A stretch of 39,107 bases of DNA from positions 1 to 39,107 of the forward strand of contig CACWZP010000029.1 of NCBI GenBank assembly GCA_902765395.1, in the 5' to 3' direction. Origin of the DNA: an uncultured Eubacteriales bacterium (GTDB lineage: Bacteria; Bacillota; Clostridia; Christensenellales; Aristaeellaceae). A program made the translations under genes and the position numbers. The notes below the pieces were generated by a model. That model searched no databases. It saw nothing but the letters and a program-made list of their open reading frames with translations, and was not told where the DNA came from. Positions 15,596 to 37,518 of the stretch are shown in pieces (position 1 is the first letter of the stretch; the number at the start of each line of letters is the position of its first letter).

Positions 15596-16897
15596 TCAGT
15601 CCGCCGCGACGGTGGCCACATCGGAACCCATCACGGTCTGGATGTCGGCCCAGACCTGGCGCATGCGGGCGGCGTCGGCGTAGGCCATGCCCTCCGGCTC
15701 GGCGTCCAGCCACTGGCCCACGGCCAGGGTGTGATAGTCGTACTTGCCGTCCTGGGTCTCGGCGCGCCACACATAGGTGGGGATGTAGATCGGGCTGGTG
15801 ATGGAGAACTTGCCGTACTCCTCGGATTCCTGGATGGTGAACTGGAAGATCACGCCGTTGTCATACTGGCCGTACTGGTCGGACAGGAAGTTGCCGGCGC
15901 AGCCCAGGCACAGCGTGCGGTGCACATTGCCCTCGGAATCCTTGTTCTCCAGCCACATGGCGGGCTGGATCACATGGGGGTTGTAACCGATGATCACGTC
16001 CACGCCCCACTCGGCCAGCTTCTGGGCGATCTTCACCTCGGTCTCGGTGGGGGTCTGCTTCAGCATCTCGCCCCAGCTGCAATAGCAGATGATCACGTCG
16101 GCGCCGGCGGCCCGGGCGTTCTCGATGTCCTTCTTGGCGTTGGACTTGCTGATCAGGTTCACGCCGTACTCGATGGCGGCGGGATCGGCCTTCGCCTCGT
16201 TGCCGTTCAGAGTCTCGGTGTAGCCCAGGAAGGCCACGTTGATGCCGTTGATCTCGCGGATGACGGGCGTGGCGCGCTCCTCGGCGGAGGCCGCCGCGCC
16301 GACGTAATCCATGCCCTCGGCCTGGCAGTTGGCCATGGTGGCCTGCAGCTCCGCCCAGCCGCCATCCAGCGCGTGGTCGTTGGCCAGGGTCAGCATATCC
16401 ACGCCGCAGGCCTTCAGTGCGCTGATCAGCGAGGGAGGCGTGGCCATGCGGTCGCTGCCGGCATACTCGGTGGTGCCGCCCAGCGTGCCTTCCACGTCGG
16501 CCACGGTGTAATCCGCGTCGCCCATCACGTCGGATATGTAGGAGAACATGCTGGTGAAATCGAAGGTGTTCTCGCTGACGGCGGCGCGCAGCAGGTTCTG
16601 CTGCATGGCAATCTCACCCAGCGAGCGGATCGTGGCGCTGCGGGGCTCCGGCACGGGGGTGGGGGTGGGCACCGGCGTGGGGGTGGGCGCTTCCGTGACA
16701 TCGGCCGCTTCATTGCTGGCCGCCGTGGCGTCCGGGATGACGCCCGACACCGTGACATCCGGCTGGTCGAAGGGGTGCAGCACGGTGATCACGATGACCG
16801 CCACCAGGATCAGCGCCAGCGCGCCCAGCGTGCCAAGCCCCAGGGGCGTGATGCGATAATTCCCGATTCTCAGGCCTTTTGCGGGTTTGTTGGACAT
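15596..16897 (-). CDS. Membrane-anchored CapA/PGA-synthesis-like protein
   Basis: This 433-residue protein has a short cytoplasmic N-terminus, one transmembrane helix (about 19-40), a TPTPVP-rich linker (about 70-85) and an extracellular CapA (PGA_cap) metallophosphoesterase-like domain from about 90. The family motifs are modified: ADVEGTLGG where NLE(S/T)P is usual, and ANDHALDGG for ANNHxxDxG. IICYCSWGEMLKQTPTETE and VIIGYNPHVIQP correspond to the usual HWGxE..P and GHHPHVxQ. The ATG at 16897 has GGAGG 8 nt upstream; an in-frame start further upstream would include the ribosome-binding site. Poly-gamma-glutamate capsule is the classic association, but no capB or capC is here, so the substrate is unknown. 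Confidence 0.85.
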   Translation of the reverse strand: MSNKPAKGLRIGNYRITPLGLGTLGALALILVAVIVITVLHPFDQPDVTVSGVIPDATAASNEAADVTEAPTPTPVPTPTPVPEPRSATIRSLGEIAMQQNLLRAAVSENTFDFTSMFSYISDVMGDADYTVADVEGTLGGTTEYAGSDRMATPPSLISALKACGVDMLTLANDHALDGGWAELQATMANCQAEGMDYVGAAASAEERATPVIREINGINVAFLGYTETLNGNEAKADPAAIEYGVNLISKSNAKKDIENARAAGADVIICYCSWGEMLKQTPTETEVKIAQKLAEWGVDVIIGYNPHVIQPAMWLENKDSEGNVHRTLCLGCAGNFLSDQYGQYDNGVIFQFTIQESEEYGKFSITSPIYIPTYVWRAETQDGKYDYHTLAVGQWLDAEPEGMAYADAARMRQVWADIQTVMGSDVATVAAD

Positions 16898-16971
16898 ATT
16901 GATTACCTCCGTCGAATCCGCCGAATGGACAGGCCGCCCGCCGGATTCCACATATTCCGATTAATAACGAT

Positions 16972-17000
16972 ATTATATCATATCTTCCCCCGGCAGGCAA
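16972..17000 (-). promoter_or_regulatory. Promoter of the CapA-like gene
   Basis: On the minus strand TTGCCT (17000-16995), a 17-bp spacer and TATAAT (16977-16972). The divergent region 16898-17230 otherwise holds only AT-rich sequence and the promoter of the opposite gene. Confidence 0.7.
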
Positions 17001-17105
17001 TGGAAGAATTTGATTTTTCGGTATATTTTTTGCAATAATATTTCTATATGTGAAATTCTATTAATTAAGATTGTGACAAAATTTCACTTTTTTGTTCCAA
17101 AACGA

Positions 17106-17134
17106 TTGACAGCGACGCATATGTGATGTATGCT
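17106..17134 (+). promoter_or_regulatory. Promoter of the zinc-repeat membrane protein
   Basis: TTGACA (17106-17111), a 17-bp spacer and TATGCT (17129-17134), with an AT-rich UP-like stretch before the -35. The leader of about 90 nt to the ATG at 17231 shows no clear known riboswitch. Confidence 0.7.
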
Positions 17135-17230
17135 TGTAATGGCATTAAGTAGTTATCGGGCGTCCCATGCTCTGCGCCGTTTCGGCGGATGCCCGCAGTA
17201 TATCGGCTATGATATAAGGTGGTACATACT

Positions 17231-20200
17231 ATGGCGACACATGCGATTGGAAACTTCAAATTCAATCTGTCGGACGGAGGTCTGTCCTGGCGGATGGGGG
17301 ATGGCAGCGTCCATCGCCTGTTCGGCGGCAAGAAGGCCCCGGCGGATGATGAATATATGGATAACATGGATCCTGATGGCGAGGAAGGCTACCAGGACGA
17401 TTATGATGCCCGGGACGAGGGCTATGCCGACGGCTACGACTATGACGATCGCGCCGACGAGGGCGATTACGACGACGCCGACTACGACGATGATTACGAC
17501 GACGCCGGCTATGACGACGGCGACGGCTACGATGACGACGACGGCTATTATGACGATGATGGCTATGCCGGCGATGGCGATTACGACGACGACGGCTATG
17601 CCGACGATGGCTACGGCGACGATTACCAGGGCGATTATGACGATCGCTACCAGGACGTGGACGCCGATGACTACCAGGGCGGCTATGACGAAGAGCAGAG
17701 CAGCCTGATGCGCTATGTGGACGAGAACGACTGGGTGACCTACCTGCTGCTGTTCCTGTTCCCGCCGCTGGGCATCTATCTGCTGTGGCGGCGCAACCGC
17801 TTTGAAAAGCCCCTGCGCTGGGGCCTGACGGCGGCCTCCGCCATCTGGTTCATCGTGGCGCTGATCCTGCTGCTGCGCGGCCTGTTCGGCGGCTCCGGCG
17901 ACCAGCCCGTCCAGCCCAGCATCACCATCCCGCCGGCCCAGGTCGCTGTCACCGCGGCCCCGGCGGCCGACGGCGTGACCTCCATCGACCTGGGCGGCGG
18001 CGATGTCACCGCGGACGATGGCGAGGGCGACGCCGATACCGGCGACAGCGCGGACGGCTCGGGCGAGCTCACCGGCGACGACGTGGAGCCCACGGCCACC
18101 CCGCTGGCCAGCGCGGCCAACGGCGCCAACGTCAACAATGCCACCTACGTCTGGAGCCCGGCCTCCGGCCTGTACTACCACTCCTCCAACACCTGTCCCT
18201 CCATCGAGGAAGGCGTGCAGGTGTGGCAGGTGACCAAGGAGATCGCCGAGAACAGCCGTCACCAGAGCCCCTGCCCGGACTGCATCGGCGGCGGCACGGT
18301 GACCACCTACTACGCCCGCGCGGACGGCAAGTACTACCACGTGGACGCCACCTGCTCCAAGATGAAGAACGCCAAGGTCTACACCAAGGAGGCCGCCGAG
18401 GGCGAGGGCAAGACGCCCTGCCCGGTCTGCATCCTGAAGACCAAGAGCAGCCTGGACGAGGAGGAGACCGTCGCCGGCCGCCCGGTGTTCATCAGCTCCG
18501 ATACCACCGACAAGAGCGGCATCCAGGTCTACGCCACCAAGGGCGGCACACACTTCCATGTGAAGAGCAACTGCTCCGGCATGCAGGGCGCCAGCAAGGG
18601 CAGCCTGAAGGACGCGCTGCTGGCGGGCAAGACGGCCTGCCCCACCTGCTGCCCCACGGCGGGCATGCTGGTGTACTGCCGCGCGGACAGCAAGAGCTAC
18701 CACAGCGACAAGAACTGCCAGGGTATGAAGAACGCCAAGCAGGTGACGCTGGCGGAGGCCATGGTCATGGGCAAGCAGCGCTGCGACGTCTGCATGAAAA
18801 ACGGTGCGTCGGCCAGCTCCTCCATCACGGAAAACACCTCCGGCAAGAACAACGGCAGCGCCGTGTCCCTCACCAGCGCCACCGGCGACAACGTGAAGGT
18901 CTATGCCACCCAGAACGGCACCTACTACCACACCAACAGCACCTGCTCGGGCATGAAGGACGCCAAGCTGTACACGCTCAAGGCCATGCTGCAGGCGGGC
19001 AAGAAGGCCTGCCCGGTGTGCGCCTCCAGCGCCACCACCACGGTTTACGCCAGCAAGGGCGGCAAGTACTACCACTCCTACGCCACCTGCTCGGGCATGA
19101 AGAACGCCTCCAGCGGCACCCTCGCGGAAGCCCTGGCGGCTGGATTGAAGCGGTGCCCGGAATGCTGGGACAAGTCCGGCAAGGCGGTGAAGCAGACCAC
19201 CCAGACCGCCTCCGCCAAGACCACCACCACCAAGACCACCGCGGCCAAGACCACGGCCACGACCACCAAGACCACGACCACGGCCAAGGTGCCCACGGTG
19301 AGCGCCGACAAGAAGAGCGCGGCCCCCAGCAAGGCCACGGCCAGCAACACCTACGTCTACGCCACCCGGAAGGGCAGCTACTACCACGTGAACAGCAGCT
19401 GCGGCGGCATGACCGGCGCCAGCCGCGTCAGCCTGAAGACCGCCATCCAGGCGGGGAAGAAGGCCTGCCCGATCTGCGCCAGCGCCGCCAACCGCACGGT
19501 CTATTCCACCAAGACCGGCAGCCACTACCACGCGGCCAGCGTGTGCGTGAAGTCCGGATTGAAGAACGGCACCAAGCGCAAGCTCTCCGAGGCGCTGATG
19601 CTGGGCCAGACCGCCTGCCCTTACTGCCTGAGCAGCAAGAAGGCGGCCCAGACCGCCCAGACCACCGCCGCGGCCGTGAAGAAGGCCGTCGCCACCGTCG
19701 CTTCCCGTCAGACCAGCACCTACAAGTCCGGCAAGTCCGGCGTGCGGGTGTATGCCAGCCTGACGGGCAAATACTATCATACCCGCAGCAGCTGCCCGAA
19801 CCTCTCCGGCAGCGCCAGCCGCGTCACGCTGGAGACGGCGCTGAACTACGGCAAGACCGCCTGCCCCGAGTGCGCCTCCGCCGCCAAGCGGACGGTCTAC
19901 GCCACCAAGGGCGGCAAGTACTATCACTACAGCAAGACCTGCGCCGGTTCCAGCGCCCGGAAGGGCAGCCTGGCCTCCGCGCTGGCCTACGGCCTGGATC
20001 CCTGCCCCAACTGCGTGACCCACACGGCCTCCGTGCCCAAGCCGGCAACCACGGCCTACAAGAGCGGCACCTCCGGCATCAAGGTCTATGCCTCCGCCGG
20101 CAGCAGGTACTACCACTCCAACAGCACCTGTTCCGGCATGACCGGCGCGACCAAGGTGACGCTGGAGACGGCGCTGAACTACGGCAAGAAGGCCTGCCCG

Positions 20201-20617
20201 GTCTGCATGGCCGCGGCCAACTTCAAGGTCTACGCCGTGCCCGGCGGCTCCCATTACCACTACAGCAAGGCCCACGCCGGTTCCGGCGCCATCGGCGGCA
20301 CGCTGGCCAAGGCGCGCGCCCTGGGCCTGACGGCCTGCCCCACCTGCACCAAGCTGGCGGCCGGCGCGACCAGCTATGACAACGGCGGCGCCGCGAACGC
20401 GCCCGTGTCCAACGAGGAATACCCGGGCCTGCCGGATTCCAGCGTGTACATCGACCTGGGCAGCGCCAACAACTACTACCACCTGGGGCCGAAGTGCACC
20501 AAGGCCAAGTTCTCCGGCGGCACCAAGGTGACGCTGCAGTACGCGGTGGACTGGGACTACAAGGCCTGCCCCTACTGCAACCCGCCCACCACGGTCATAC
20601 CGGATACGGACGCGTGA
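17231..20617 (+). CDS. Large membrane protein with acidic N-terminus and 13 tandem Cys/His repeats
   Basis: This 1128-residue protein has four regions. Residues 1-40 are a short globular start. About 40-155 is an Asp/Tyr/Gly-rich low-complexity tail (DDYDDAGYDDGDGYDDDDG). Two hydrophobic segments (about 170-185 and 196-220) form a hairpin with the WRRNRFEKP loop between. A Thr/Ala linker precedes 13 repeats of about 45-65 residues (about 304-1125). Each has the pattern VYA(T/S)-x-G-x-YYH-x5-C-x(2)-M..(T/S)L-x-EA-x(4)-GK-x-ACPxC. The His-Cys-CxxC spacing resembles the Ada-type zinc motif found at the ends of some nucleases and surface proteins, so each repeat probably binds one zinc. The repeat 6/7 linker is Lys/Thr-rich. 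The ATG at 17231 follows AAGGTGG. Function is unknown. Confidence 0.85.
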   Translation: MATHAIGNFKFNLSDGGLSWRMGDGSVHRLFGGKKAPADDEYMDNMDPDGEEGYQDDYDARDEGYADGYDYDDRADEGDYDDADYDDDYDDAGYDDGDGYDDDDGYYDDDGYAGDGDYDDDGYADDGYGDDYQGDYDDRYQDVDADDYQGGYDEEQSSLMRYVDENDWVTYLLLFLFPPLGIYLLWRRNRFEKPLRWGLTAASAIWFIVALILLLRGLFGGSGDQPVQPSITIPPAQVAVTAAPAADGVTSIDLGGGDVTADDGEGDADTGDSADGSGELTGDDVEPTATPLASAANGANVNNATYVWSPASGLYYHSSNTCPSIEEGVQVWQVTKEIAENSRHQSPCPDCIGGGTVTTYYARADGKYYHVDATCSKMKNAKVYTKEAAEGEGKTPCPVCILKTKSSLDEEETVAGRPVFISSDTTDKSGIQVYATKGGTHFHVKSNCSGMQGASKGSLKDALLAGKTACPTCCPTAGMLVYCRADSKSYHSDKNCQGMKNAKQVTLAEAMVMGKQRCDVCMKNGASASSSITENTSGKNNGSAVSLTSATGDNVKVYATQNGTYYHTNSTCSGMKDAKLYTLKAMLQAGKKACPVCASSATTTVYASKGGKYYHSYATCSGMKNASSGTLAEALAAGLKRCPECWDKSGKAVKQTTQTASAKTTTTKTTAAKTTATTTKTTTTAKVPTVSADKKSAAPSKATASNTYVYATRKGSYYHVNSSCGGMTGASRVSLKTAIQAGKKACPICASAANRTVYSTKTGSHYHAASVCVKSGLKNGTKRKLSEALMLGQTACPYCLSSKKAAQTAQTTAAAVKKAVATVASRQTSTYKSGKSGVRVYASLTGKYYHTRSSCPNLSGSASRVTLETALNYGKTACPECASAAKRTVYATKGGKYYHYSKTCAGSSARKGSLASALAYGLDPCPNCVTHTASVPKPATTAYKSGTSGIKVYASAGSRYYHSNSTCSGMTGATKVTLETALNYGKKACPVCMAAANFKVYAVPGGSHYHYSKAHAGSGAIGGTLAKARALGLTACPTCTKLAAGATSYDNGGAANAPVSNEEYPGLPDSSVYIDLGSANNYYHLGPKCTKAKFSGGTKVTLQYAVDWDYKACPYCNPPTTVIPDTDA
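17340..17700 (+). repeat. Low-complexity Asp/Tyr/Gly coding repeat
   Basis: GAC, GAT, TAC, TAT and GGC codons alternate irregularly, giving tracts of DDGY and DYDD. The varied codons suggest the amino-acid composition is under selection, not a recent DNA expansion. Confidence 0.8.
18140..20590 (+). repeat. Thirteen tandem protein repeats (YYH..C..CPxC)
   Basis: Units are recognisable from SGLYYHSSNTC (first) to NNYYHLGPKC (thirteenth). Units 9-10 and 11-12 are more like each other as pairs (both first members contain VTLETALNYGK, both second members YHYSK.(C/H)AGS), pointing to duplication of a two-repeat block. In unit 12 the first Cys is His (SKAHAGSG), a zinc-compatible change. Confidence 0.8.
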
Positions 20618-27423: not shown

Positions 27424-27471
27424 TATCCTGTGAGATCGTGCAAGCCCGCCCGACTCACAGGAGGGATAACC

Positions 27472-29097
27472 ATGAAGCGCGTTTTGAAGCGATATTACAA
27501 GCCTATTTTGGTACTGGCACTGCTGGGCCTGATCGGCGCGGTTTTGTGCGGGTGCATGCCTGACGAGGATTGTGAACATGAATTTGTATTGCTCGAGAGC
27601 CAGGCTTATGTGATGAACTCACCGGAGACAGAGATTCCGAAAGTTGGTGTATTGCCGATCGTGTCCTGCGGCGAGCGTGGCTATTGGTATGATAAGTATA
27701 GCTGCGCAAAGTGCAGTGGCATCATCTATCGCAGAGCGAGTGATGAGCTGGTTATACAGCAGCATGATATGTCCCCGTGGATGAGCCTCGTGAAGCCCGC
27801 ATGCACGCAGGCGGGCACGGAGAAGCGGTACTGCCGGAGGGACTGCTGTTTCATAAATGGCGATGACATCAACAGTAACAAGATGTATGAGACCCGCACG
27901 GTCCCGGCGCTGGGCCACAACTACAAGAAGATCGACGCTGTCCCGGCCACCTGCACGGAGGCGGGCCGCACCGGCGGAAAGAAGTGCACGCGCTGCGGGC
28001 ATGTCTCCGGTCTCGAGACCATCCCCGCCCTGGGCCACGATTGGGGCGAGCCGATCTACACCTGGAAAAACGACCACGCAACCTGCGACGCCATCCGCGT
28101 ATGCAATCGGGATGCCAGCCACGTGGAAGGCGCAAAGGCGACCGTGCTTGCCCGGAGCACCGGCGACATCTGCACCGAGGGGCGCTCCATCGTTTACACG
28201 GCGACCTTCCCCAGGGACACCGCTTTTACCACGCAGACCTTCACCGAGCAGCAGCCCGCCGGCCACACGCCGCAGGTCATCCCCGCCGTGACCGCCACCT
28301 GTGCCGAGACCGGCCTGACGGAGGGGCAGAAGTGCAGCGTCTGCGGCGAGATCCTCGTGGCACAGAAGACCATTCCCATCGACCCGGACAACCACGTCGG
28401 CGCTTTGACGCTTGTCCCCGGCCGGGCGGCCACCTGTGTCAGCGAAGGCGCGAAGGACGGCTTCTACTGCTCGGCCTGCAAGGCGACCGTGCAGGAGACC
28501 ATTCCCATCGACCCGAACAACCACCTCATGGCGAAGGTCGTCGAGGGCACGGCGGCCACCTGCACGGAGGCTGGCCTGAGCAGCTACACCGTGTGCGCGG
28601 ACTGTGGCGTGGTGGTGACTGCCCAGAAGGAGCTTCCCGCCCTGGGCCACACCGGCGGCAAAGCGACCTGCACAGAGGCGGCGGTCTGCACCCGATGCGG
28701 CGAATCCTATGGAGAGCTGGGCGAGCACGTGATGGTGGAAGTGGAGCCCGCCGTGGAGCCCAGCTGTGAATCCCCCGGCATGACGGCATACTACCGATGC
28801 AGCGTGTGCGAGGAGTACGAGATCCCCAGCGAGCCCTACGGCGAAGCCCTGGGCCATACCGGCGGCACCGCCACCTGCAAGGAGCAGGCCGTGTGCACCC
28901 GCTGCGGCGAGCCCTATGGCGAACTGGATGCGCACAGCTATGCCAGCACCGGCGAATCCTGGGAAGGTGAGGAAACGGTTGACGAGAAGCGATACGCCAC
29001 ATGGGGCCATTTCGAGGAGTGCTCCGTCTGCGAAGACGTTAGAAAGGTTGAAGACGGGCGGAAAGAGATCCAGGAGGAACTGGGCCCGACTGGTTGA
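27472..29097 (+). CDS. Lipoprotein with tandem CxxC/GH repeats
   Basis: This 541-residue secreted protein has a Lys/Arg-rich N-terminus, a hydrophobic segment and lipobox LCGC, so lipidation at Cys near residue 25 is predicted. The mature part contains about seven degenerate repeats of the pattern A(L/I)GH...ATCTEAG...CxxCG....IP, as in TGGKKCTRCGHVSGLETIPALGH and LTEGQKCSVCGEILVAQKTIP. The shorter version, GHTGG.ATC.E.AVCTRCGE.YGEL, occurs twice near the C-terminus. Such repeats are common in surface proteins of gut Clostridia and may bind metal or form disulfides. The ATG at 27472 follows AGGAGGG. The first 350 bases are less GC-rich than the repeats, suggesting a composite origin. Confidence 0.82.
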   Translation: MKRVLKRYYKPILVLALLGLIGAVLCGCMPDEDCEHEFVLLESQAYVMNSPETEIPKVGVLPIVSCGERGYWYDKYSCAKCSGIIYRRASDELVIQQHDMSPWMSLVKPACTQAGTEKRYCRRDCCFINGDDINSNKMYETRTVPALGHNYKKIDAVPATCTEAGRTGGKKCTRCGHVSGLETIPALGHDWGEPIYTWKNDHATCDAIRVCNRDASHVEGAKATVLARSTGDICTEGRSIVYTATFPRDTAFTTQTFTEQQPAGHTPQVIPAVTATCAETGLTEGQKCSVCGEILVAQKTIPIDPDNHVGALTLVPGRAATCVSEGAKDGFYCSACKATVQETIPIDPNNHLMAKVVEGTAATCTEAGLSSYTVCADCGVVVTAQKELPALGHTGGKATCTEAAVCTRCGESYGELGEHVMVEVEPAVEPSCESPGMTAYYRCSVCEEYEIPSEPYGEALGHTGGTATCKEQAVCTRCGEPYGELDAHSYASTGESWEGEETVDEKRYATWGHFEECSVCEDVRKVEDGRKEIQEELGPTG

Positions 29098-29103
29098 GCG
29101 CAC

Positions 29104-29132
29104 TTTACAATTCCATAATTCCCTGTTATAAT
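29104..29132 (+). promoter_or_regulatory. Promoter of the DUF4428 gene
   Basis: TTTACA (29104-29109), a 17-bp spacer and TATAAT (29127-29132). Confidence 0.7.
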
Positions 29133-29171
29133 ATAGACGGAATATTACCAACCGTTGAGGAGGGATGGATC

Positions 29172-30071
29172 ATGGGACTTTTCAGCAAGAAGGTATGTGA
29201 CATCTGCGGCGGCGACATCGGCCTGCTGGGCAACCGCAAGCTGGAGGACGGCAACCTGTGCAAGGACTGCGCCAGGAAGCTCTCGCCCTTCATGACTGAC
29301 CGTCGCCAGTCCACCGTGGCGGAGATCCGCCAGCACCTGGCCTATCGCGCCGGCAACATGGCCGTGCTGGCCAGCGTTCATCCCACTAACGTGCTGGGCG
29401 GCGCCACCAAGGTCTACATCGACGAGGCCGCGGGCAAGTTCTTCGTCACCCGCAGCCGCAACTGGCGCGACGAGAACCCGGACGTGATCGACTTCAGCCA
29501 GGTCATCGACGTGCGCACCGAGGTCACCGAGCACCGCACCGAGGAGTATCACAACGATCCCCAGGGCCGCCGCGTGTCCTTCAACCCGCCGCGCTATCGC
29601 TATTCCTACGAGTTCGACACCACCATCCTGGTGGATTCGCCCTACTTCAACGAGATCCGCTTCGAGCTGACCGAGCAGCGCCCGGAGCGCCAGCATGACC
29701 AGGTCTACAACTATTACGAGCAGCTGGCCGACACCCTGCACGCCGCGCTGATGCCCGCCCAGGCGGCCCGGCCCGCCAATGTCGCCGACGCCCTGAGCGC
29801 CACCATCGCCAAGGCCGTGGCCTCCATGACCAGCGCCGCCAAGCCCGCTGCGCCCGCGCCCGCCGCCCAGCCCGTGGACGACGGCAAGTGGACCTGCGCC
29901 TGCGGCGCGGTGAACGCCGGCAACTTCTGCACCAACTGCGGCGCGAAGAAGCCCGAGCCGGTGAAGGTGTTCCGCTGCGACAAGTGCGGCTGGACGCCCG
30001 AGGATCCCACCAACCCGCCCAAATTCTGCCCCAACTGCGGCGACCCCTTCAACATGGCCGACGCCCACTGA
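29172..30071 (+). CDS. DUF4428-family protein with C-terminal zinc ribbons
   Basis: This 299-residue protein is cytoplasmic by prediction. The N-terminal DUF4428 treble-clef-like motif has CDICGG (Cys9, Cys12) and CKDC (Cys30, Cys33) around the hallmark LGNRKLEDG. A middle beta-rich domain (about 60-200) contains FFVTRSRNW, VIDVRTEVTE and TTILVDSPYFNEIRFEL. After an Ala/Pro-rich linker come two zinc ribbons: WTCACGAVNAGNFCTNCGAKKP and FRCDKCGW..KFCPNCGDPF. The ATG at 29172 follows GAGGAGGG. The biochemical role of the family is not known to me. It has its own promoter and terminator. Confidence 0.87.
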   Translation: MGLFSKKVCDICGGDIGLLGNRKLEDGNLCKDCARKLSPFMTDRRQSTVAEIRQHLAYRAGNMAVLASVHPTNVLGGATKVYIDEAAGKFFVTRSRNWRDENPDVIDFSQVIDVRTEVTEHRTEEYHNDPQGRRVSFNPPRYRYSYEFDTTILVDSPYFNEIRFELTEQRPERQHDQVYNYYEQLADTLHAALMPAQAARPANVADALSATIAKAVASMTSAAKPAAPAPAAQPVDDGKWTCACGAVNAGNFCTNCGAKKPEPVKVFRCDKCGWTPEDPTNPPKFCPNCGDPFNMADAH

Positions 30072-30289: not shown

Positions 30290-30365
30290 GCCAATGTAGC
30301 TCAGTTGGCAGAGCAGCGGTTTCGTAAACCGCAGGTCAAGGGTTCGAGTCCCTTCATTGGCTCCA
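30290..30365 (+). tRNA. tRNA-Thr (anticodon CGU)
   Basis: A complete cloverleaf of 76 nt with encoded CCA. The acceptor is GCCAATG/CATTGGC, the D-stem GCTC/GAGC, the anticodon stem GCGGT/ACCGC with loop TTCGTAA (anticodon CGT, reading ACG), and the T-arm AAGGG-TTCGAGT-CCCTT. The discriminator base is T. Confidence 0.96.
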
Positions 30366-30371
30366 TGACAA

Positions 30372-30434
30372 CGAGGTGTAGCGCTTTGGTTCGGGACCAA
30401 AAGGTCGCAGGTTCAAATCCTGTCACCTCGACCA
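30372..30434 (+). pseudogene. tRNA-Pro (CGG)-like gene lacking the D-arm
   Basis: The 63-nt sequence has a perfect acceptor stem (CGAGGTG/CACCTCG), anticodon stem TTTGG/CCAAA with loop TTCGGGA (anticodon CGG), variable loop AGGTC, T-arm GCAGG-TTCAAAT-CCTGT and encoded ACCA. Between position 9 and the anticodon stem only GCGC remains, where a 4-bp D-stem and loop are expected. Normal bacterial tRNA-Pro has GCGC on both sides of the D-loop, so a deletion between these short repeats would give this product. Bacterial tRNAs without a D-arm are not known to work in general translation, so I call it a pseudogene. An assembly error should also be excluded. Confidence 0.8.
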
Positions 30435-30781: not shown

Positions 30782-30993
30782 CGTGGCATGTGCCATGTGT
30801 ATTAGGTTTGAAGTCAAACCCATGAACGCGGCAATCGCGAATGGCCAGAATATCGAGAAAAAACCAAGGGAAAGTTAATCTAAAATTCACATTAGTATGT
30901 TAAACTATCAAGGCATGACACAGGAAACCTCTTCCATAAGTATATGTGGTCCAACTGCGCCCGATAGTTAATAATTAATGAGGAGTGGCATTT

Positions 30994-32073
30994 ATGCCTG
31001 ATGCGATCGTCTCATTGCAACATGTGGACAAATGGTATGGGGAAAACCATGTTGTCAAAGATCTGAACCTTGATATCCTTGAGGGCGAGTTCCTGACACT
31101 GCTCGGCCCGTCCGGCTGCGGTAAAACCACGACCCTGCGCATGATTGCGGGCTTTGAAGACGCCACCTCTGGCACGATTACCGTGCAGGGAGAGCGTGTT
31201 GAGGAAAAGGAGCCTTATCAGCGCGACGTCAATACGGTTTTTCAGAACTACTCGCTGTTTCCGCATTTGACGGTCTACGATAACGTCGCCTATGGTCCGT
31301 CCATAAAAAAGGTTCCTAAGGCGGAGATTCGGAAGCGTGTAACGGAGATGCTTCATTTGGTGCAGATGGACGGCTACGAAAAGCGCAAGCCCGAAGCGCT
31401 CTCCGGCGGTCAGAAACAACGCGTGGCCATTGCACGCGCGCTGATCAACAATCCCCGCGTACTGCTGCTGGACGAGCCGCTCGGCGCTCTGGATCTCAAG
31501 CTGCGCAAGCAGATGCAGATCGAGCTCAAGCGCCTTCAGAAGAAGCTCGGCATCACCTTCGTCTATGTCACTCACGACCAGGAGGAGGCCATGACCATGT
31601 CCGACCGCATCGCGGTCATACGCAACGGGGTTATCCTCCAGATCGGCGCGCCCATGGAAATCTACGACCGGCCGAACTGCCGCTTTGTCGCGGACTTCAT
31701 CGGCGAATCGAATGTGCTCTCCGGAACGGTGCGCCGCGTAAACGGAACGAGTCTTTCGGTGGAAACGCCCGACGGGATGGTCCTCACCCATGGCGATGGC
31801 TTCCGTGAGGGCGAAGACATCTACATCTCTATTCGTCCCGAATACCTTTCAGTGCAAGAAAAGCCGCATGAAGGTTTTACGCTTCGCGCCAGGGTCAAGG
31901 ATTTTATCTACATGGGTACCGTCGTGAAGACGAGTCTCGACCTGCCGAATGGGCAGGAGCTCAAGCTCTCCCGCTTTGAGGCGGACTCAAGCCTTCGCGA
32001 GGGCGATGAACGCTTCGTCTGGTGGGAGCCGGAGAAATCCATCCCGATCCACCGGGAGGAGGGAGAAAGATGA
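30994..32073 (+). CDS. Polyamine-type ABC transporter ATP-binding protein
   Basis: This 359-residue ATPase is of the PotA/FbpC (MOI) family. It has Walker A GPSGCGKTT (38-46), Q-loop FQNYSLFPH, signature LSGGQKQR (136-143), Walker B VLLLDEPLGALD (about 156-167) and H-loop VTHDQEEA. The C-terminal TOBE domain (about 270-350) contains ISIRPEYLSV. The ATG at 30994 follows GAGGAGTGG. It is first of a seven-gene operon and overlaps the permease gene by ATGA. The domain layout is that of spermidine/putrescine importers. Linkage to frlBCD suggests the cargo is a cationic Amadori compound, not a polyamine (inference). Confidence 0.93.
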   Translation: MPDAIVSLQHVDKWYGENHVVKDLNLDILEGEFLTLLGPSGCGKTTTLRMIAGFEDATSGTITVQGERVEEKEPYQRDVNTVFQNYSLFPHLTVYDNVAYGPSIKKVPKAEIRKRVTEMLHLVQMDGYEKRKPEALSGGQKQRVAIARALINNPRVLLLDEPLGALDLKLRKQMQIELKRLQKKLGITFVYVTHDQEEAMTMSDRIAVIRNGVILQIGAPMEIYDRPNCRFVADFIGESNVLSGTVRRVNGTSLSVETPDGMVLTHGDGFREGEDIYISIRPEYLSVQEKPHEGFTLRARVKDFIYMGTVVKTSLDLPNGQELKLSRFEADSSLREGDERFVWWEPEKSIPIHREEGER

Positions 32074-32945
32074 ACGGCGCATCCACTGCGAAGAAGCGGC
32101 ACAACAGGCTGCCCGCAATCGCGCAGGCAGGACCGGTATCACTTTGGATGATTCTGTTTGTGACGATCCCGATGCTCTTTATCATATTCATCAGCTTTAT
32201 GACGCGCGGCAGCTTTGGCGGTGTGGAATACACCCCGACGCTCACATCCTATGAGACGCTTGCGGATGTGATTTATCTCAATGTCATCCTGAAGAGCCTG
32301 CGCGTGGCGCTTGTAACGACCGTGGTCTGCCTGCTGCTGGGCTATCCCTTCGCTTATTACATCGCGCGCAAGCCCGCGGACGTGGCCTCCCGTCTCATCA
32401 TGCTGCTGATGATTCCGCTCTGGACGAATTCTCTGATGCGCCTGAACGCATGGATGCTGCTGTTTCAGACCAACGGTCCGGTGAACAAAGCGCTTCTCGG
32501 GCTCGGATTTGTTGAAAAGCCGGTAACCTTTCTGTATACCGATGGTCTGGTATTGCTTGGCCTGATCACGAACTTTCTGCCCTTTGCTGTACTGCCGATG
32601 TATTCCTCCATTGAAAAACTGCAAACCGCAATGCTGGAGGCCTCCGCCGATCTGGGCGCAAAGCCCTCTGTCACCTTCTTCCGGGTGACGCTGCCGCTTA
32701 CCTTCCCCGGCATCTTCTCAGCCATCATACTGACCTTCATCCCCGCGCTCGGCACCTATACCATTACAGACATGCTCGGCGGTGGCAAGGTTCTCTATAT
32801 CGGCAACATCATCAAAAACCAGTTTGGCACAATACGGAACTGGCCCCTCGGCGCGGCACTGAGCGTGCTGCTGCTCCTGGTGACCGCGCTTTTGATCTTC
32901 GTATACTCACGATTTGCGAAGATCGAGGATATGGAGGTGCTGTAA
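32070..32945 (+). CDS. Polyamine-type ABC permease (PotB-like)
   Basis: The 291-residue inner-membrane permease has six predicted helices, beginning at about 22-44 (VSLWMILFVTIPMLFIIFIS). The EAA loop EASADLGAKPSVTFFRVTLP (about 190-209), which contacts the ATPase, is clear. The ATG at 32070 overlaps the ATPase stop by 4 nt and has a strong GGAGGAGGG upstream. It pairs with the next permease to form the heterodimeric channel. Confidence 0.92.
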   Translation: MNGASTAKKRHNRLPAIAQAGPVSLWMILFVTIPMLFIIFISFMTRGSFGGVEYTPTLTSYETLADVIYLNVILKSLRVALVTTVVCLLLGYPFAYYIARKPADVASRLIMLLMIPLWTNSLMRLNAWMLLFQTNGPVNKALLGLGFVEKPVTFLYTDGLVLLGLITNFLPFAVLPMYSSIEKLQTAMLEASADLGAKPSVTFFRVTLPLTFPGIFSAIILTFIPALGTYTITDMLGGGKVLYIGNIIKNQFGTIRNWPLGAALSVLLLLVTALLIFVYSRFAKIEDMEVL

Positions 32946-33826
32946 TGATGAAGCAGATCTCCAACCGCAAGCTGCGACGGCAGAAGCGTAACCGCTTTTT
33001 CGGTGCGCTATATGCGTCGATCATTTATGCGCTCTTCTATATCCCGGTGCTCGTGATGATCCAGTTCTCCTTCAACGACGCCAAGCGCAACTACTCCTGG
33101 GAGGGCTTCACGACCATGTGGTACGGTAAACTCTTCTCATTCCGTAACCACGATCTCTGGGAGGCGCTGGTCTATTCGCTCATCATCGCCGTCATCGCGA
33201 CAATCATCAGCGTGGCAATCGGGGTGCTCGGCGGAGTCGGACTCAAAAAGTTCGAATTTCGCGGCAAGAGGTTCATCAACCTCATGCTCTATGTACCCAT
33301 CGTCGTTCCGGAAATCGTACTCGCTGTATCCATGCTCATCATTTTCATGACCATCGGCATCAAGCTCGGCATGGGAACCATCGTAATCGGCCATTGTACT
33401 TTCTGCATACCCTATGCGGTGGTGACCATCAAGGGCCGGATCAGCGGAGACAATGAGACGCTGCAGGAAGCCTCCATGGATCTCGGCGCGAACCGGCTGC
33501 AGACCTTCTGGCGCGTTACGATCCCGAGCATCATGCCCGGCATTCTCTCGGCGGCATTTCTGAGTTTTACACTGTCCATCGACGATGTGATCATGTCCAA
33601 CATGCTCGCCAGCGCCCGGCAGTCCACGCTTCCGGTGCTGATCCTCTCGGTCAATCGGACCGGTGTCACCCCTGATATCAATGCCCTGACCACGATCATG
33701 GTGCTGGTCATGGTGGCAGGGATGCTTCTTTTGAGCGCCGTGCAGCGCGCCCGGGCAAAGAAAGAGGCCAGGGAAATCGCCGAAATGGAAAAACGGATTT
33801 CCACCATGCACAGCATGGTCGAATAA
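32945..33826 (+). CDS. Polyamine-type ABC permease (PotC-like)
   Basis: The 293-residue permease has a basic N-terminus (NRKLRRQKRNR) before the first helix (about 20-42). Its EAA motif is EASMDLGANRLQTFWRVTIP (about 177-196). The ATG at 32945 overlaps the upstream stop by one base and has GGAGG 8 nt before it; a second ATG is at 32948. The C-terminal tail (RARAKKEAREIAEMEKRIS) is predicted helical and cytoplasmic. Confidence 0.92.
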   Translation: MMKQISNRKLRRQKRNRFFGALYASIIYALFYIPVLVMIQFSFNDAKRNYSWEGFTTMWYGKLFSFRNHDLWEALVYSLIIAVIATIISVAIGVLGGVGLKKFEFRGKRFINLMLYVPIVVPEIVLAVSMLIIFMTIGIKLGMGTIVIGHCTFCIPYAVVTIKGRISGDNETLQEASMDLGANRLQTFWRVTIPSIMPGILSAAFLSFTLSIDDVIMSNMLASARQSTLPVLILSVNRTGVTPDINALTTIMVLVMVAGMLLLSAVQRARAKKEAREIAEMEKRISTMHSMVE

Positions 33827-33857
33827 TAACCCCAACACAACAAAAGGAGGAACCAAC

Positions 33858-34883
33858 ATGAAAAGAACGCTGTCTGTCCTGGTCGCACTCATCATGCTCC
33901 TGACCCTCACCCCCGCCTTCGCTGCCCAGGAGGAGATCAACATCTTCATGTGGAGCGATTACATCTCCGACGATCTGATCGCCAATTTTGAGGATGAATA
34001 CGGTGTGCGCGTGAATCTCAGCTACATGAGCGACAATGCCGACTCCATCACCAAGCTCACCGCCGGCGCCGGCAGCGAGTATGACCTGATCATGACCTGC
34101 GATGCCTACATGGAATCCCTGATCGCGGGCGGCTATTTGGAGCAGCTGGATCTGTCCCAGATTCCCAATTCCGAGAACATCAACCGGGCCTACTGGTCCG
34201 AACAGAACCAGGGCTACTGTGTGCCCTATCTTATGAACTACATCTACGTGGTTTATGATACCGAGCGCTGCCCCATCGAGATCACCTGCTACAATGACCT
34301 GATCCGTCCCGAAATGAAGGGCCAGATCGGCTCGGTCGATGGCGCGCGCAACCTTTTCCCCATCGCGCTGATCGCCCTGGGCTACGATCCCAACTCCCGC
34401 AATGAGAATGAGATCAAGGAAGCCTACGAGTGGCTCGTGAAGTACAACGAGAACGTCGTGGCCTATGGCTCCACCGAGACCAACATGGTCAGCGGCACCA
34501 TCTCCTGCATGTTCACCTATGACGGCAACACTGCCGAGGCCATGGCGCAGTTGGGTGAGAACAACACCCTCACTGTCGCGCCCTTCACCTCCGATCCCGT
34601 GCAGCTGGGCTTCGACCTCTACGTTATCCCCAAGGGCGCGCAGCATATTGACCTCGCCTATAAGTTCCTCAACTACATCTGCGATCCCGAGGTCATGGCC
34701 GCGAACCTGGTGGACAATCCCTATTCCTGCCCGAACGACGCGGCTGTGGCGGCAGCTTCCGAGGAATACCGCAACGGCCCCGCCTTTAACTTTGACTACA
34801 AGACCAACATCTTCTTCCAGGAAGACGTGGGCGACGCCATCACGATTTACGACCAGTATTATCAGATGCTGAAGGTGGGCTGA
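33858..34883 (+). CDS. Polyamine-type ABC substrate-binding protein (PotD-like), non-lipoprotein
   Basis: This 341-residue extracytoplasmic binding protein belongs to the PotD/PotF family. The signal peptide (MKRTLSVLVALIMLLTLTPA) ends AFA-AQ, a signal peptidase I site. There is no lipobox cysteine, unusual for a Gram-positive binding protein. Family features include INIFMWSDYIS (about 27-37; Trp and Tyr of the amine box), YDLIMTCDAYMESL (about 76-89), YLMNYIYVVYDTE and LGFDLYVIPKGAQH. Strong AAAAGGAGGA precedes the ATG. It is followed after 3 nt by frlB. Its substrate is predicted to be fructoselysine or a related fructosamine from context. Confidence 0.9.
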   Translation: MKRTLSVLVALIMLLTLTPAFAAQEEINIFMWSDYISDDLIANFEDEYGVRVNLSYMSDNADSITKLTAGAGSEYDLIMTCDAYMESLIAGGYLEQLDLSQIPNSENINRAYWSEQNQGYCVPYLMNYIYVVYDTERCPIEITCYNDLIRPEMKGQIGSVDGARNLFPIALIALGYDPNSRNENEIKEAYEWLVKYNENVVAYGSTETNMVSGTISCMFTYDGNTAEAMAQLGENNTLTVAPFTSDPVQLGFDLYVIPKGAQHIDLAYKFLNYICDPEVMAANLVDNPYSCPNDAAVAAASEEYRNGPAFNFDYKTNIFFQEDVGDAITIYDQYYQMLKVG

Positions 34884-34886
34884 GTT

Positions 34887-35882
34887 TTGCTGAAGTTTGA
34901 CGAAAAGGAACAAATCGCCAGTGTACGCGGCGCGCTTGCCCTGCGCCCGCGGATCGAGGAAATCGTGGACGCTGTGTGGGACGCTGGCCTCAAGAACCTG
35001 TGTTGGCTGGGCATCGGCGGAACCTGGGCCTCGGCCATGCAGGCTGTCTGCCACATGAAAGAGCGCACCTCGCTCGAGGTCTTCTCGCTCAACGCGGCGG
35101 AATATCTCACAACGGGTGACCGGCGCATCGGCAATGGGACCCTGCTGGTCTTCTCCTCCGTCACGGGTACGACCTCCGAGATCGTACAGGCTGTGGCGAA
35201 GGCACAGGCGGCCGGCGCGAAGGTGCTCGGCTTTGTGGATACGGCGGGGACAACGCTGGCAGAAAAAGCGGACATTTGCATTTGTTACCCGAAGAATGAA
35301 CAGCTCAAGTTCTTCATGGCAGCCGATCGCTTTCTGTTCCGCGAGGGCGTGATGCCGGAATATGAAGCCATGTATGCGCAGTTTGACCGCTCACTGCCCG
35401 AGGCGCTGGCCGGGGTAGAAAAGTCGGCAGACACCTTCGGCGCAGCTTTCGCCGAAAAGCATATGAACGATGCGCTTCACTACTTTGTCGGCGCGGGGGC
35501 GCTCTACGGCTCCACCTACTCTTACGCAATGTGCTACTGTGAAGAAATGCACTGGATGCGAACCAAGTCCATCCATGCGGCTGAATTCTTTCACGGCATG
35601 CTTGAAATCGTGGACGAGGACACGCCTGTGACCGTCTTTATGGGCGAGGATCGCCAGCGTCCGCTCACCGAGCGCGTGGTGCGCTTCCTTGAGAAGGTGA
35701 ACAGGAATCACACGGTCATCGATTCCCGCGATTACGCACTGCCCGGCATCGACGATGCCTATCGCTACAGCGTCAGCCACCTGGTGACGCACGCCGTGAC
35801 AAATCGCATTGACGCGCATCTCGAGGCCCTGAGCGGCCACGATATGGAAATCCGGCGGTATTACCGCAAGGTGGAATACTGA
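34887..35882 (+). CDS. frlB: FrlB-like fructosamine-6-phosphate deglycase (SIS domain)
   Basis: The 331-residue SIS-domain protein resembles E. coli FrlB, which splits fructoselysine-6-phosphate into glucose-6-phosphate and lysine. The first SIS half has LGIGGTWASAMQAV (about 41-54) and FSSVTGTTSEIVQAV (about 89-103). The HAAEFFHGMLEIVDEDTPV segment (about 230-248) matches the FrlB pattern ESGEF.HGPLEIVEPGVP, followed by EDRQRPLTERVVRF. The C-terminus RRYYRKVEY parallels the RRYYGGLVEY end of FrlB. The start is TTG 34887, with AAGGTGGG 8 nt upstream; no ATG occurs until about residue 50, after the SIS core begins. Other fructosamines (fructose-asparagine, glucoselysine) are possible substrates. 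Confidence 0.87.
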   Translation: MLKFDEKEQIASVRGALALRPRIEEIVDAVWDAGLKNLCWLGIGGTWASAMQAVCHMKERTSLEVFSLNAAEYLTTGDRRIGNGTLLVFSSVTGTTSEIVQAVAKAQAAGAKVLGFVDTAGTTLAEKADICICYPKNEQLKFFMAADRFLFREGVMPEYEAMYAQFDRSLPEALAGVEKSADTFGAAFAEKHMNDALHYFVGAGALYGSTYSYAMCYCEEMHWMRTKSIHAAEFFHGMLEIVDEDTPVTVFMGEDRQRPLTERVVRFLEKVNRNHTVIDSRDYALPGIDDAYRYSVSHLVTHAVTNRIDAHLEALSGHDMEIRRYYRKVEY

Positions 35883-35888
35883 TCCAAA

Positions 35889-35914
35889 GGGGAGGCCGAT
35901 GCCTCCCCTGTTTT
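35889..35914 (+). promoter_or_regulatory. Hairpin between frlB and frlC
   Basis: GGGGAGGC (35889-35896), loop CGAT, GCCTCCCC (35901-35908), then TGTTTT. It looks like a weak internal terminator or mRNA-stabilising stem. It also sequesters the only Shine-Dalgarno-like GGAGG before frlC, whose ATG has no good ribosome-binding site of its own. Confidence 0.55.
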
Positions 35915-35921
35915 GACTGCT

Positions 35922-36758
35922 ATGAAATACGGATTGTTTACCTGTCCCTACCAGCGTTTGCCGCTGGAACGGGCCTTCATGGACGCCAAGGCCTTTGGCT
36001 ATGATTATATCGAGTTATGGGGCGGCCGTCCGCATGCCTTTGCGCCTGACCTGCTTGCCGGTGAGATGAACGCCGTTCTGGACCTGCAGGAACGCTATGC
36101 CATGCCGGTAGAGGTTTATACGCCGGAGCACAACGCTTACCCCTATAACTACATGCTCGGAAGCGAACGCCAATGGAAGGACGCGATGGACTATCTCACA
36201 GCCGCGCTGCGCTGTGGGAAGGCGCTCGGCGCCGCGTATACCCTCATCTCACTCGGGCACAGCGGCTTTGCCCCCGAAGCGGTGCGCAAGGCGCGGTTAC
36301 ATCGGAGTTTGCTGTATCTTGCGGAACATGCCGGGCATTTGAATCACAATATCGTTTTGGAGACGCTGACCCCCTATGAGAGCGACCATTGTACCCAAGC
36401 GAAGGTGCTGAAGGCGCTGCTGGATGAAGTCGGCTCCGAGCATCTGTTCGGGATGTGCGATGTGGTGGTGCCGTTCGTACAGGGGGAGGATGCGACGGAT
36501 TACGCGCGGCTGCTGGGCGGGCGCATGGCTCACCTGCATTTGGCTGACAGTGACGGCATGAGCGATACCCACCTCATACCCGGTGAGGGCAGAATGGACT
36601 TCCCGACACTGCTCCGTTCGCTGCAGGCCTGCGGCTATGACGGGCGCGCGACGCTGGAACTGGTAACGCATTACATTGACACTCCCTCGGAAGCTGCCCG
36701 TGAAGCATTGGAGAGAATACGGAGGATGAGCTATGAGAATTGCCTGTGTGGGCGATAA
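35922..36758 (+). CDS. frlC: FrlC-like fructoselysine 3-epimerase (TIM-barrel)
   Basis: The 278-residue xylose-isomerase-like TIM-barrel protein aligns by eye along its length with E. coli FrlC, which interconverts psicoselysine and fructoselysine. Shared segments are GLFTCPYQRLPLERAF (4-19), YDYIELWGGRPHAFAPDL (about 28-45), VYTPEHNAYPYNYMLG, ETLTPYESDH (about 146-155), HLHLADSDGMSDTHLIPGEG (about 205-224) and ATLELVTHYI. The Glu, Asp, His and Glu in these last motifs are the expected metal ligands. ATG 35922 fits the homologue N-terminus; TTG 35913 would add three residues. It overlaps frlD by 26 nt. Confidence 0.92.
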   Translation: MKYGLFTCPYQRLPLERAFMDAKAFGYDYIELWGGRPHAFAPDLLAGEMNAVLDLQERYAMPVEVYTPEHNAYPYNYMLGSERQWKDAMDYLTAALRCGKALGAAYTLISLGHSGFAPEAVRKARLHRSLLYLAEHAGHLNHNIVLETLTPYESDHCTQAKVLKALLDEVGSEHLFGMCDVVVPFVQGEDATDYARLLGGRMAHLHLADSDGMSDTHLIPGEGRMDFPTLLRSLQACGYDGRATLELVTHYIDTPSEAAREALERIRRMSYENCLCGR

Positions 36759-37518
36759 CTGCATCGACTACTATGACGCGACGGGCGCGGCCTGTCCCGG
36801 CGGCAATCCGGTTAACGTCGCAGTCTACGCCCGCCGAATGGGCGTTGAGACCGCTTATCTTGGCGCGGTCGGGACAGATCGCTTCGGCGATTTGCTGATC
36901 CGTCGTCTGGAAGAAGAGCGTGTAGACGTCAGCCATGTGCAACGCCTGAAGGGTTCAACCGCGCTGTGTCATGTGAGCCTTCAGGACGGAGACCGCATCC
37001 TCGGTGACTATGATGAAGGCGTGATGCAACAGTTTGCACTGCGTGATGAGGATCTGCAGTATCTGAAGAGCTTTGATCTGGTCGTCACCGGGCTCTGGGG
37101 GCACACAGAACACTATCTGGAACAGATTCGTGCAAACGGAACGCCGACTGCTTTTGACGGCGCGGAGCGCCCCTTCGATCCGGCGGGACTGATTGCCCTG
37201 CCGCATACCAATATCGCATTCTTTTCTGATGACACCGCGGACGACGCGGCGTTGAAAGAAAAGCTACTCGCAGTTGCGGCACTTGGGCCCGACATCGCCG
37301 TCGCCACCCGTGGCGCTCACGGCAGCCTCGCCTTTGACGGCAGTTCTTTCTTTGACTGTCCACCCGCGCCCTGTACAGTTGCGGACACAATGGGCGCTGG
37401 TGACAGCTATATTGCGGGCTTTCTCAGGGCATGGCTTGAATGCAAGTCGATCTCCGCCTGCATGCTGGAAGGAGCCAGGAACGCTGCTATTACGATCGGA
37501 TATACCGGAGCATGGTGA
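36733..37518 (+). CDS. frlD: FrlD-like fructoselysine 6-kinase (PfkB family)
   Basis: The 261-residue PfkB-family sugar kinase closely follows E. coli FrlD: CVGDNCIDYYD (5-15), GGNPVNVAVYARRMGVE (about 23-39), GDYDEGVMQQFALRDED (about 92-108), GLWGHTEHYLEQI and the catalytic DTMGAGDSYIAGFLRAW (about 218-234) with Asp224 as base. The ending AAITIGYTGAW parallels the AAKTIQYHGAW of FrlD. It phosphorylates imported fructoselysine for FrlB. The ATG at 36733 has GGAGG (36721-36725) and lies inside the frlC end, so it is coupled. It is the last gene of the operon. Confidence 0.93.
   Translation: MRIACVGDNCIDYYDATGAACPGGNPVNVAVYARRMGVETAYLGAVGTDRFGDLLIRRLEEERVDVSHVQRLKGSTALCHVSLQDGDRILGDYDEGVMQQFALRDEDLQYLKSFDLVVTGLWGHTEHYLEQIRANGTPTAFDGAERPFDPAGLIALPHTNIAFFSDDTADDAALKEKLLAVAALGPDIAVATRGAHGSLAFDGSSFFDCPPAPCTVADTMGAGDSYIAGFLRAWLECKSISACMLEGARNAAITIGYTGAW

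Follow-up and report, generated by a model that had tools for sequence, protein, structure and literature searches.

Thirteen Ada-like modules behind a predicted membrane anchor: a candidate polymer-binding surface protein of an uncultured Aristaeellaceae bacterium

Here, we describe an array protein of 1128 amino acids (aa) from an uncultured Eubacteriales bacterium of the family Aristaeellaceae (Bacillota; Clostridia; Christensenellales), in which thirteen small modules related to the zinc domain of Ada follow a predicted membrane anchor. Its gene lies at 17231–20617 on the plus strand of the stretch that was analysed, that is, positions 1 to 39,107 of contig CACWZP010000029.1 (GenBank assembly GCA_902765395.1; 39,107 nucleotides, hereafter the window), and is supported by its open reading frame (ORF), upstream conservation, a coding substitution pattern and homologues. 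The modules are arranged as six pairs plus a single one. The Ada-related module itself is known, and a keyword-limited search of the openly accessible literature retrieved no description of long, paired and membrane-anchored arrays of it. Our best explanation is a protein that is anchored in the membrane and would bind a polymer multivalently at the cell surface, which we rate just short of probable. This corresponds to one of the roles raised in the original prediction, made from the letters of the window alone, and is the plausible one that we prefer.

The protein contains 13 CxxC and 13 YH or FH motifs, one of each per module (YH-x4-C ... CxxC). The motif pattern occurred thirteen times, as opposed to a mean of 0.002 and a maximum of one in 2000 residue shuffles, and motif count and shuffles together bear out the thirteen repeats that had been predicted. 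Their description as a plain tandem held for the number of modules, but the spacing turned out to be uneven (consecutive CxxC-to-CxxC distances of 49, 73, 48, 76, 48, 104, 50, 82, 47, 64, 47 and 77), which reflects the six pairs and one single module, and module R12 carries a His in place of the first Cys. On the plus strand, the pairs comprise R1 (18143–18286) and R2 (18302–18433), R3 (18521–18652) and R4 (18665–18796), R5 (18893–19024) and R6 (19037–19168), R7 (19349–19480) and R8 (19493–19630), R9 (19742–19876) and R10 (19889–20017), and R11 (20078–20209) and R12 (20222–20350), followed by the single, C-terminal R13 (20444–20581). Motifs define all thirteen, and the structure of R5 and R6 was predicted together.

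A chance motif or composition artefact was rejected on the shuffles and on the codon substitution pattern. Locus L074 was the closest relative in this comparison; against it, codon positions 1, 2 and 3 differed by 23, 20 and 94 substitutions, and the changed codons comprised 90 synonymous and 41 non-synonymous ones. For the more distant loci L008 and L010, the respective substitutions were 162/141/297 and 136/119/268, with 237 and 226 non-synonymous against 188 and 182 synonymous changed codons. A long minus-strand ORF (17207–20482) overlaps the array gene.

The paired layout recurs in an alignment of 27 sequences (the window protein included; 26 from the genus plus L031 from another genus), in which CxxC motifs are spaced 47–53 apart within pairs and 62–132 between pairs. 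Thirteen CxxC motifs are present in 25 of these sequences. Of the remaining two, L023 has six, as a contig end cuts the gene and the remaining match sits on another contig of its genome, and L025 has eleven, with gaps that begin at the end of R3, extend into the first half of R5 and look like a loss of the length of two modules with the pairing kept, an assembly error being also possible. In 25 proteins, odd modules resembled each other (0.46), as did even ones (0.42), slightly more than odd resembled even modules (0.40); the difference is small, and among all 924 half-splits of R1–R12 only the observed odd/even split and its mirror reached its value. Besides, modules at the same position are more alike across species (mean identity 0.61–0.77) than are different positions of one protein (0.24–0.63). 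The array therefore looks old and not homogenised, and a recent repeat expansion was rejected on the same grounds.

Such an array could also serve as a spacer or wall tether, in which the modules would be no more than rigid beads, stiffened by zinc in lieu of disulphides, that either take the membrane protein across the wall or attach the membrane to the wall, with no soluble ligand involved. This would be in line with the constancy of 13 CxxC motifs in 25 of the 27 sequences despite varying linkers, with each position evolving as a line of its own, and with inter-module linkers that are rich in Thr, Ser, Ala and Lys. However, the summed inter-module length ranges from 182 to 301 residues among the 13-module arrays of the genus, so the total reach is not conserved, and arrays of other genera comprise 6 to 14 modules by pattern, with 16 profile matches in L135. 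We thus hold a spacer role to be possible but doubtful and continue to favour a polymer binder.

The putative metal ligands of the modules are highly conserved, which supports the original prediction. In the 27 aligned sequences, a count free of the residue bias of a profile, the His and the second and third Cys do not vary in any module as long as the sequence covers the position, and the first Cys is kept in all modules save R10 (Cys in 5, Asp in 13, His in 8, one gap), R11 (one His among the 27 sequences) and R12 (His in 26 of the 26 sequences having the position). In the fetched loci we obtained 877 profile matches, 835 of which fell into 73 ORFs with at least five matches and yielded 601 distinct modules. 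Here, the His and two of the Cys were present in 597 modules each (four gaps each), and the fourth ligand position was occupied by Cys in 541, His in 43, Asp in 12, Asn in one and Phe in one (three gaps), in a count that is biased in that the profile favours these residues and some ORFs represent one gene fetched twice. His and Asp are zinc ligands, too. Each module probably holds one metal ion, most likely zinc, the ligand sets predicted from sequence being His-Cys3 and, in the variants, His2Cys2 or His-Asp-Cys2.

As to the origin of the module, its profile matched a set of nine Ada-type zinc domains (eight above the Pfam cut-off and one below, eight of the nine in the His form) with hhalign 96.4% and an E value of 1.2e-9 over 40 columns. 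The pair of adjacent modules R5–R6 was predicted to fold with high confidence (predicted local distance difference test, pLDDT, 95.4; predicted template modelling score, pTM, 0.85), and the best Protein Data Bank (PDB) neighbours of this model are the Ada N-domain entries 1u8b, 1zgw, 1wpk and 1adn, albeit with weak scores. A second Foldseek match (3ouq, E 9.9) was set aside. The Ada-like nature that had been ascribed to the repeats is thus supported by a homologous profile and by the structural neighbours. Plain family searches were less telling: PF02805 (Ada_Zn_binding) did not appear among the matches of the full-length protein at E values up to 1, was found on only one of 43 individual modules (E 0.034, short of the curated cut-off) and had no match in the own genome at E 0.001; the array protein reached no Pfam or NCBIfam cut-off, and a sequence search of the PDB returned just short CxxC matches (eL43, E 0.017; Ring1B, E 7.4).

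The modules share with the N-terminal domain of Ada the profile similarity, the structural neighbourhood and a CxxC at the domain end, yet they differ in having His as the first ligand, H-x4-C instead of C-x3-C, and in being part of a protein with tandem pairs and a membrane anchor. According to a study on Ada (PMC10814553), zinc is bound there by Cys38, Cys42, Cys69 and Cys72 and is also required for structure, and a zinc-bound thiolate reacts. At the position equivalent to Cys38, the equivalence being derived from aligned ranges alone, all 597 of the aligned array modules carry His; in lieu of four Cys, three remain, the first of which is sometimes His or Asp. An Ada-like repair protein was therefore rejected and Ada-type repair appears unlikely, given that His replaces the methyl-accepting Cys38; no methyltransferase or helix-turn-helix (HTH) family was found in the array protein by Pfam and NCBIfam scans. 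For the same reason, the metal is probably structural. This substitution also bears on the idea that zinc-bound Cys might sense thiol redox state or alkylation and signal to the acidic N-terminal part. The reactive thiolate of Ada and an anchor that joins the modules to a conserved N-terminal cap would lend themselves to such a scheme, but the decisive Cys is His throughout, and a further Cys is replaced in R12 (26 of 26 sequences) and R10 (21 of 26), leaving this the least likely of the roles considered, by our estimate a very slim prospect.

Storage, buffering or sensing of zinc at the surface likewise strikes us as unlikely, storage and sensing having been entertained in the original prediction. 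With thirteen predicted sites per chain and near-perfect ligand conservation, the protein would be well equipped for it. Beyond the number of sites, though, we obtained no positive evidence: there is one ligand set per small, confidently predicted domain, zinc has a structural role in Ada as well (see above), and no zinc transporter or regulator is found among the ten scanned neighbours (an ABC transporter of unknown substrate is located ∼10 kb from the array gene). In addition, a 24-mer from the downstream end of the conserved promoter-like site ahead of the gene occurs just once in this genome when up to three mismatches are allowed, so no regulon is seen and one built on this element was rejected.

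Structure prediction and the charge pattern place a two-segment membrane anchor, as originally predicted, at 17729–17887 (plus strand), consisting of helices 167–176 and 178–188 with a break near Pro178–Pro179, a basic loop and a long helix (193–219). The loop was more basic than either flank in 40 of 40 aligned anchors (mean net charge +3.6 vs −3.4 and −1.1), which had been chosen by sequence pattern, a similar pattern failing in 5 of 20 arrays fetched from other genera. The loop should therefore be inside and the modules outside, and we infer from these sequence features that the modules would lie outside the cytoplasmic membrane under both readings of the anchor, whether the acidic N-terminal part of the window protein is inside or outside. 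The secreted or membrane proteins in which single modules are found (see below) also speak for an outside location. In a paralogue on contig C5 of the same genome, the N-terminal flank of the anchor is also strongly basic (net +9), which suggests that there the broken first helix is re-entrant and the N-terminal part remains on the inner side. Neither a signal peptide (by eye) nor a wall-anchoring family (Pfam and NCBIfam scans) was found in the array protein.

Ahead of the anchor, residues 1–31 (17231–17323, plus strand) form a cap with four short beta strands predicted (pLDDT about 81–86) and the consensus MATHxIGKLKFNxSxxGLAxRWGDGxIHRL. It is followed by an acidic segment rich in Asp, Tyr and Gly, at about residues 36–158 (17336–17704, plus strand), which stands out by its composition and is predicted to be disordered (pLDDT mostly below 50 across residues 36–153). 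The first 165 residues hold 53 Asp, 25 Gly and 23 Tyr, so that what had been taken for a tail is in fact N-terminal. Since residues 1–240, modelled from 40 sequences, reached a mean pLDDT of 62.9 and a pTM of 0.29, the relative placement of these parts is not given by the model. DUF4236, whose resemblance to the cap made it a candidate origin, was discarded, as PF14020 matched one other gene of the genome but not the array gene; weak, below-cut-off Pfam matches to PAS_9 (also on the paralogue) and DUF5658 were set aside.

In the own genome, the module profile gave 23 matches at E 0.001, of which 13 belong to the window gene, 5 to a similarly built paralogue on contig C20, two each to contigs C7 and C5, and one to C36, where it is part of a 203-aa protein with a PPxG-type hydrophobic stretch (by eye). 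In two of the 28 genus genomes (G016 and G025), the best match was just the shorter paralogue. Among 100 genomes sampled from the family (own included), 72 had a match, and at least ten modules, counted per genome and not per protein, were present in 33 genomes, which represent 17 of the 50 genera; no sampled genome outside the family had as many. In the class sample (196 genomes, own included), 34 matched, with no more than four matches in any of the 33 besides the own genome. A profile of the pair, with at most 12 candidates scored per genome, matched 33 of 398 phylum genomes (own included); outside the own genome, near-full-length pair matches were confined to three genomes of a single family (G176, G202 and G226). 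In G632, one frame contained two matches. The 21 named related loci stem mostly from uncultured Clostridiales or Clostridia metagenomes, several with titles pointing to the rumen or ruminant gut, and one is assigned to Candidatus Faecivicinus avistercoris.

Outside the arrays, nucleases and further secreted or membrane proteins end in single copies of the module, as had been anticipated. Reading 30 module-bearing frames from the class search by eye identified a nuclease or metallo-beta-lactamase-fold part in 10 and none in the remaining 20, single modules sitting C-terminally in the secreted or membrane proteins read. Ten module proteins, hand-picked for recognisable domains, comprised on Pfam scanning three nucleases (two Endonuclea_NS_2, one SNase), four metallo-beta-lactamase-fold proteins, one TadE protein, one M78 peptidase and one without family. 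The one of these four metallo-beta-lactamase-fold proteins that was compared with NCBIfam came closest to ComEC, below the cut-off; the accessible part of a ComEC paper (PMC5031224) mentions neither Ada nor CxxC, and the one above-cut-off ComEC match in the own genome provides no tie to the array. The nuclease family PF13930 had no match there. In ORFs with one or two matches, 33 distinct modules carry His in all 33 and, at the second place, Cys in 32 and His in one. By profile and by its four ligands, the single module of these clostridial nucleases, metallo-beta-lactamase-fold and TadE-like proteins is thus the same as that of the array, but it comes once (twice in TadE-like proteins of one family and in the G632 frame) rather than thirteen times, and attached to enzymes, pilin-like or short secreted proteins. 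Two C-terminal modules at pair-like spacing were seen in L063, L070 and L151–L153, from another clostridial family, with one TadE match.

Altogether, a multivalent polymer binder would work as follows. A C-terminal arm outside the cytoplasmic membrane would expose six two-module Ada-like units plus one on flexible-looking linkers, the metal being structural and not stored or reactive. Each module or pair might grip an envelope polymer weakly, and the array would make the hold firm. The likeliest ligand may be nucleic acid or another anionic polymer, because of the company kept by the single modules and the basic charge within the genus, where 29 arrays (some representing one gene fetched twice) have a mean net charge per module of +3.2 (range 1.9 to 5.1). 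However, module charge is neutral or negative in several other genera, such that binding of a polyanion by charge throughout is only partly supported and was not retained, and charge alone does not decide the ligand. The 30 ORFs with one or two modules had a mean charge of +2.5, individual values lying between −2.5 and +8. In overall plan, the protein resembles multi-repeat surface adhesins and wall-binding repeat proteins in its membrane anchor, linkers and many copies of a small module, but differs in that its modules are Ada-related and carry metal ligands. A more far-reaching view, which we regard as rather speculative and improbable as a whole, is that of a hitherto undescribed surface-receptor class, in which the zinc module that other Clostridia bear singly on secreted nucleases, metallo-hydrolases and other proteins gave rise, in one gut family, to long, paired, anchored arrays. 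These would capture DNA outside the cell or some comparable polymer, and the acidic N-terminal part would be a tail on the cytoplasmic side that serves for signalling or self-masking.

Upstream of the array gene lies a divergent PGA_cap (CapA-like) gene (15596–16951, minus strand; Pfam PF09587; likely start near 16897), with mutY beyond it. Within the genus, CapA adjoins the array in 23 of the 25 loci L006–L030, the misses being L015 and L025, whose fetched stretches stop just upstream of the array gene. In 20 regions from other genera, CapA was found in eight, mutY alone in two and neither in ten; for four of these ten (L129, L131, L138 and L142), the upstream sequence exceeded 4 kb. Downstream in the window is tsaE, and in five of seven relatives viewed, a gene that by eye we take to be galactokinase-like sits between the array and tsaE. 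The C20 paralogue is preceded by a gene (L165, 3345–4745, plus strand) for a lipoprotein with metallo-beta-lactamase and lamin-tail domains, a relative of which was found in 9 of the 18 further regions of the genus that surround the paralogue.

The ORF runs from GTG 17219 or ATG 17231 to 20617, and ATG 17231 is the likely start. A ribosome-binding site, AAGGTGG (17216–17222, plus strand), is kept a few bases 5′ of this ATG in the consensus of 19 aligned upstream regions (nine printed), L089 deviating at this site, and the alternative GTG lies within it. As these regions were excised with an ATG-containing pattern, only their upstream part counts as independent evidence for the start. Columns at least 90% conserved in the same alignment mark a promoter-like site (TTGACA-17 bases-TATGCT; 17106–17134, plus strand), besides which the interval between the CapA-like and the array gene (16898–17230) holds a genus-conserved, AT-rich block that a regulator may bind.

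Further along the window, 27430–29097 (plus strand) encodes a protein without Pfam family that by eye is probably a lipoprotein and contains several CTEAG..C..CG...ALGH repeats rich in Cys; in L045, a similar CTEAG-type repeat precedes an Ada-like module (by eye). Next to it, a DUF4428 protein (29094–30071, plus strand) has further CxxC motifs C-terminally. Two adjacent tRNA genes (30290–30431), the only hits of an RNA family scan, are followed by a lower-GC run (30985–37518) with ABC transporter, SIS, TIM-barrel and PfkB genes.

In summary, a module related to the zinc domain of a DNA-repair protein appears to have been reused as the recurring unit of an array that is probably extracellular, and in these anaerobic gut bacteria its metal sites would do the job that disulphides do elsewhere. 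Within the sampled family such arrays are frequent and seem to be old, and in the genus they have a near-fixed number of modules. As the module is small and confidently predicted, its ligand can be sought directly, and the ligand of the array would also inform on the single modules borne by secreted nucleases and hydrolases.

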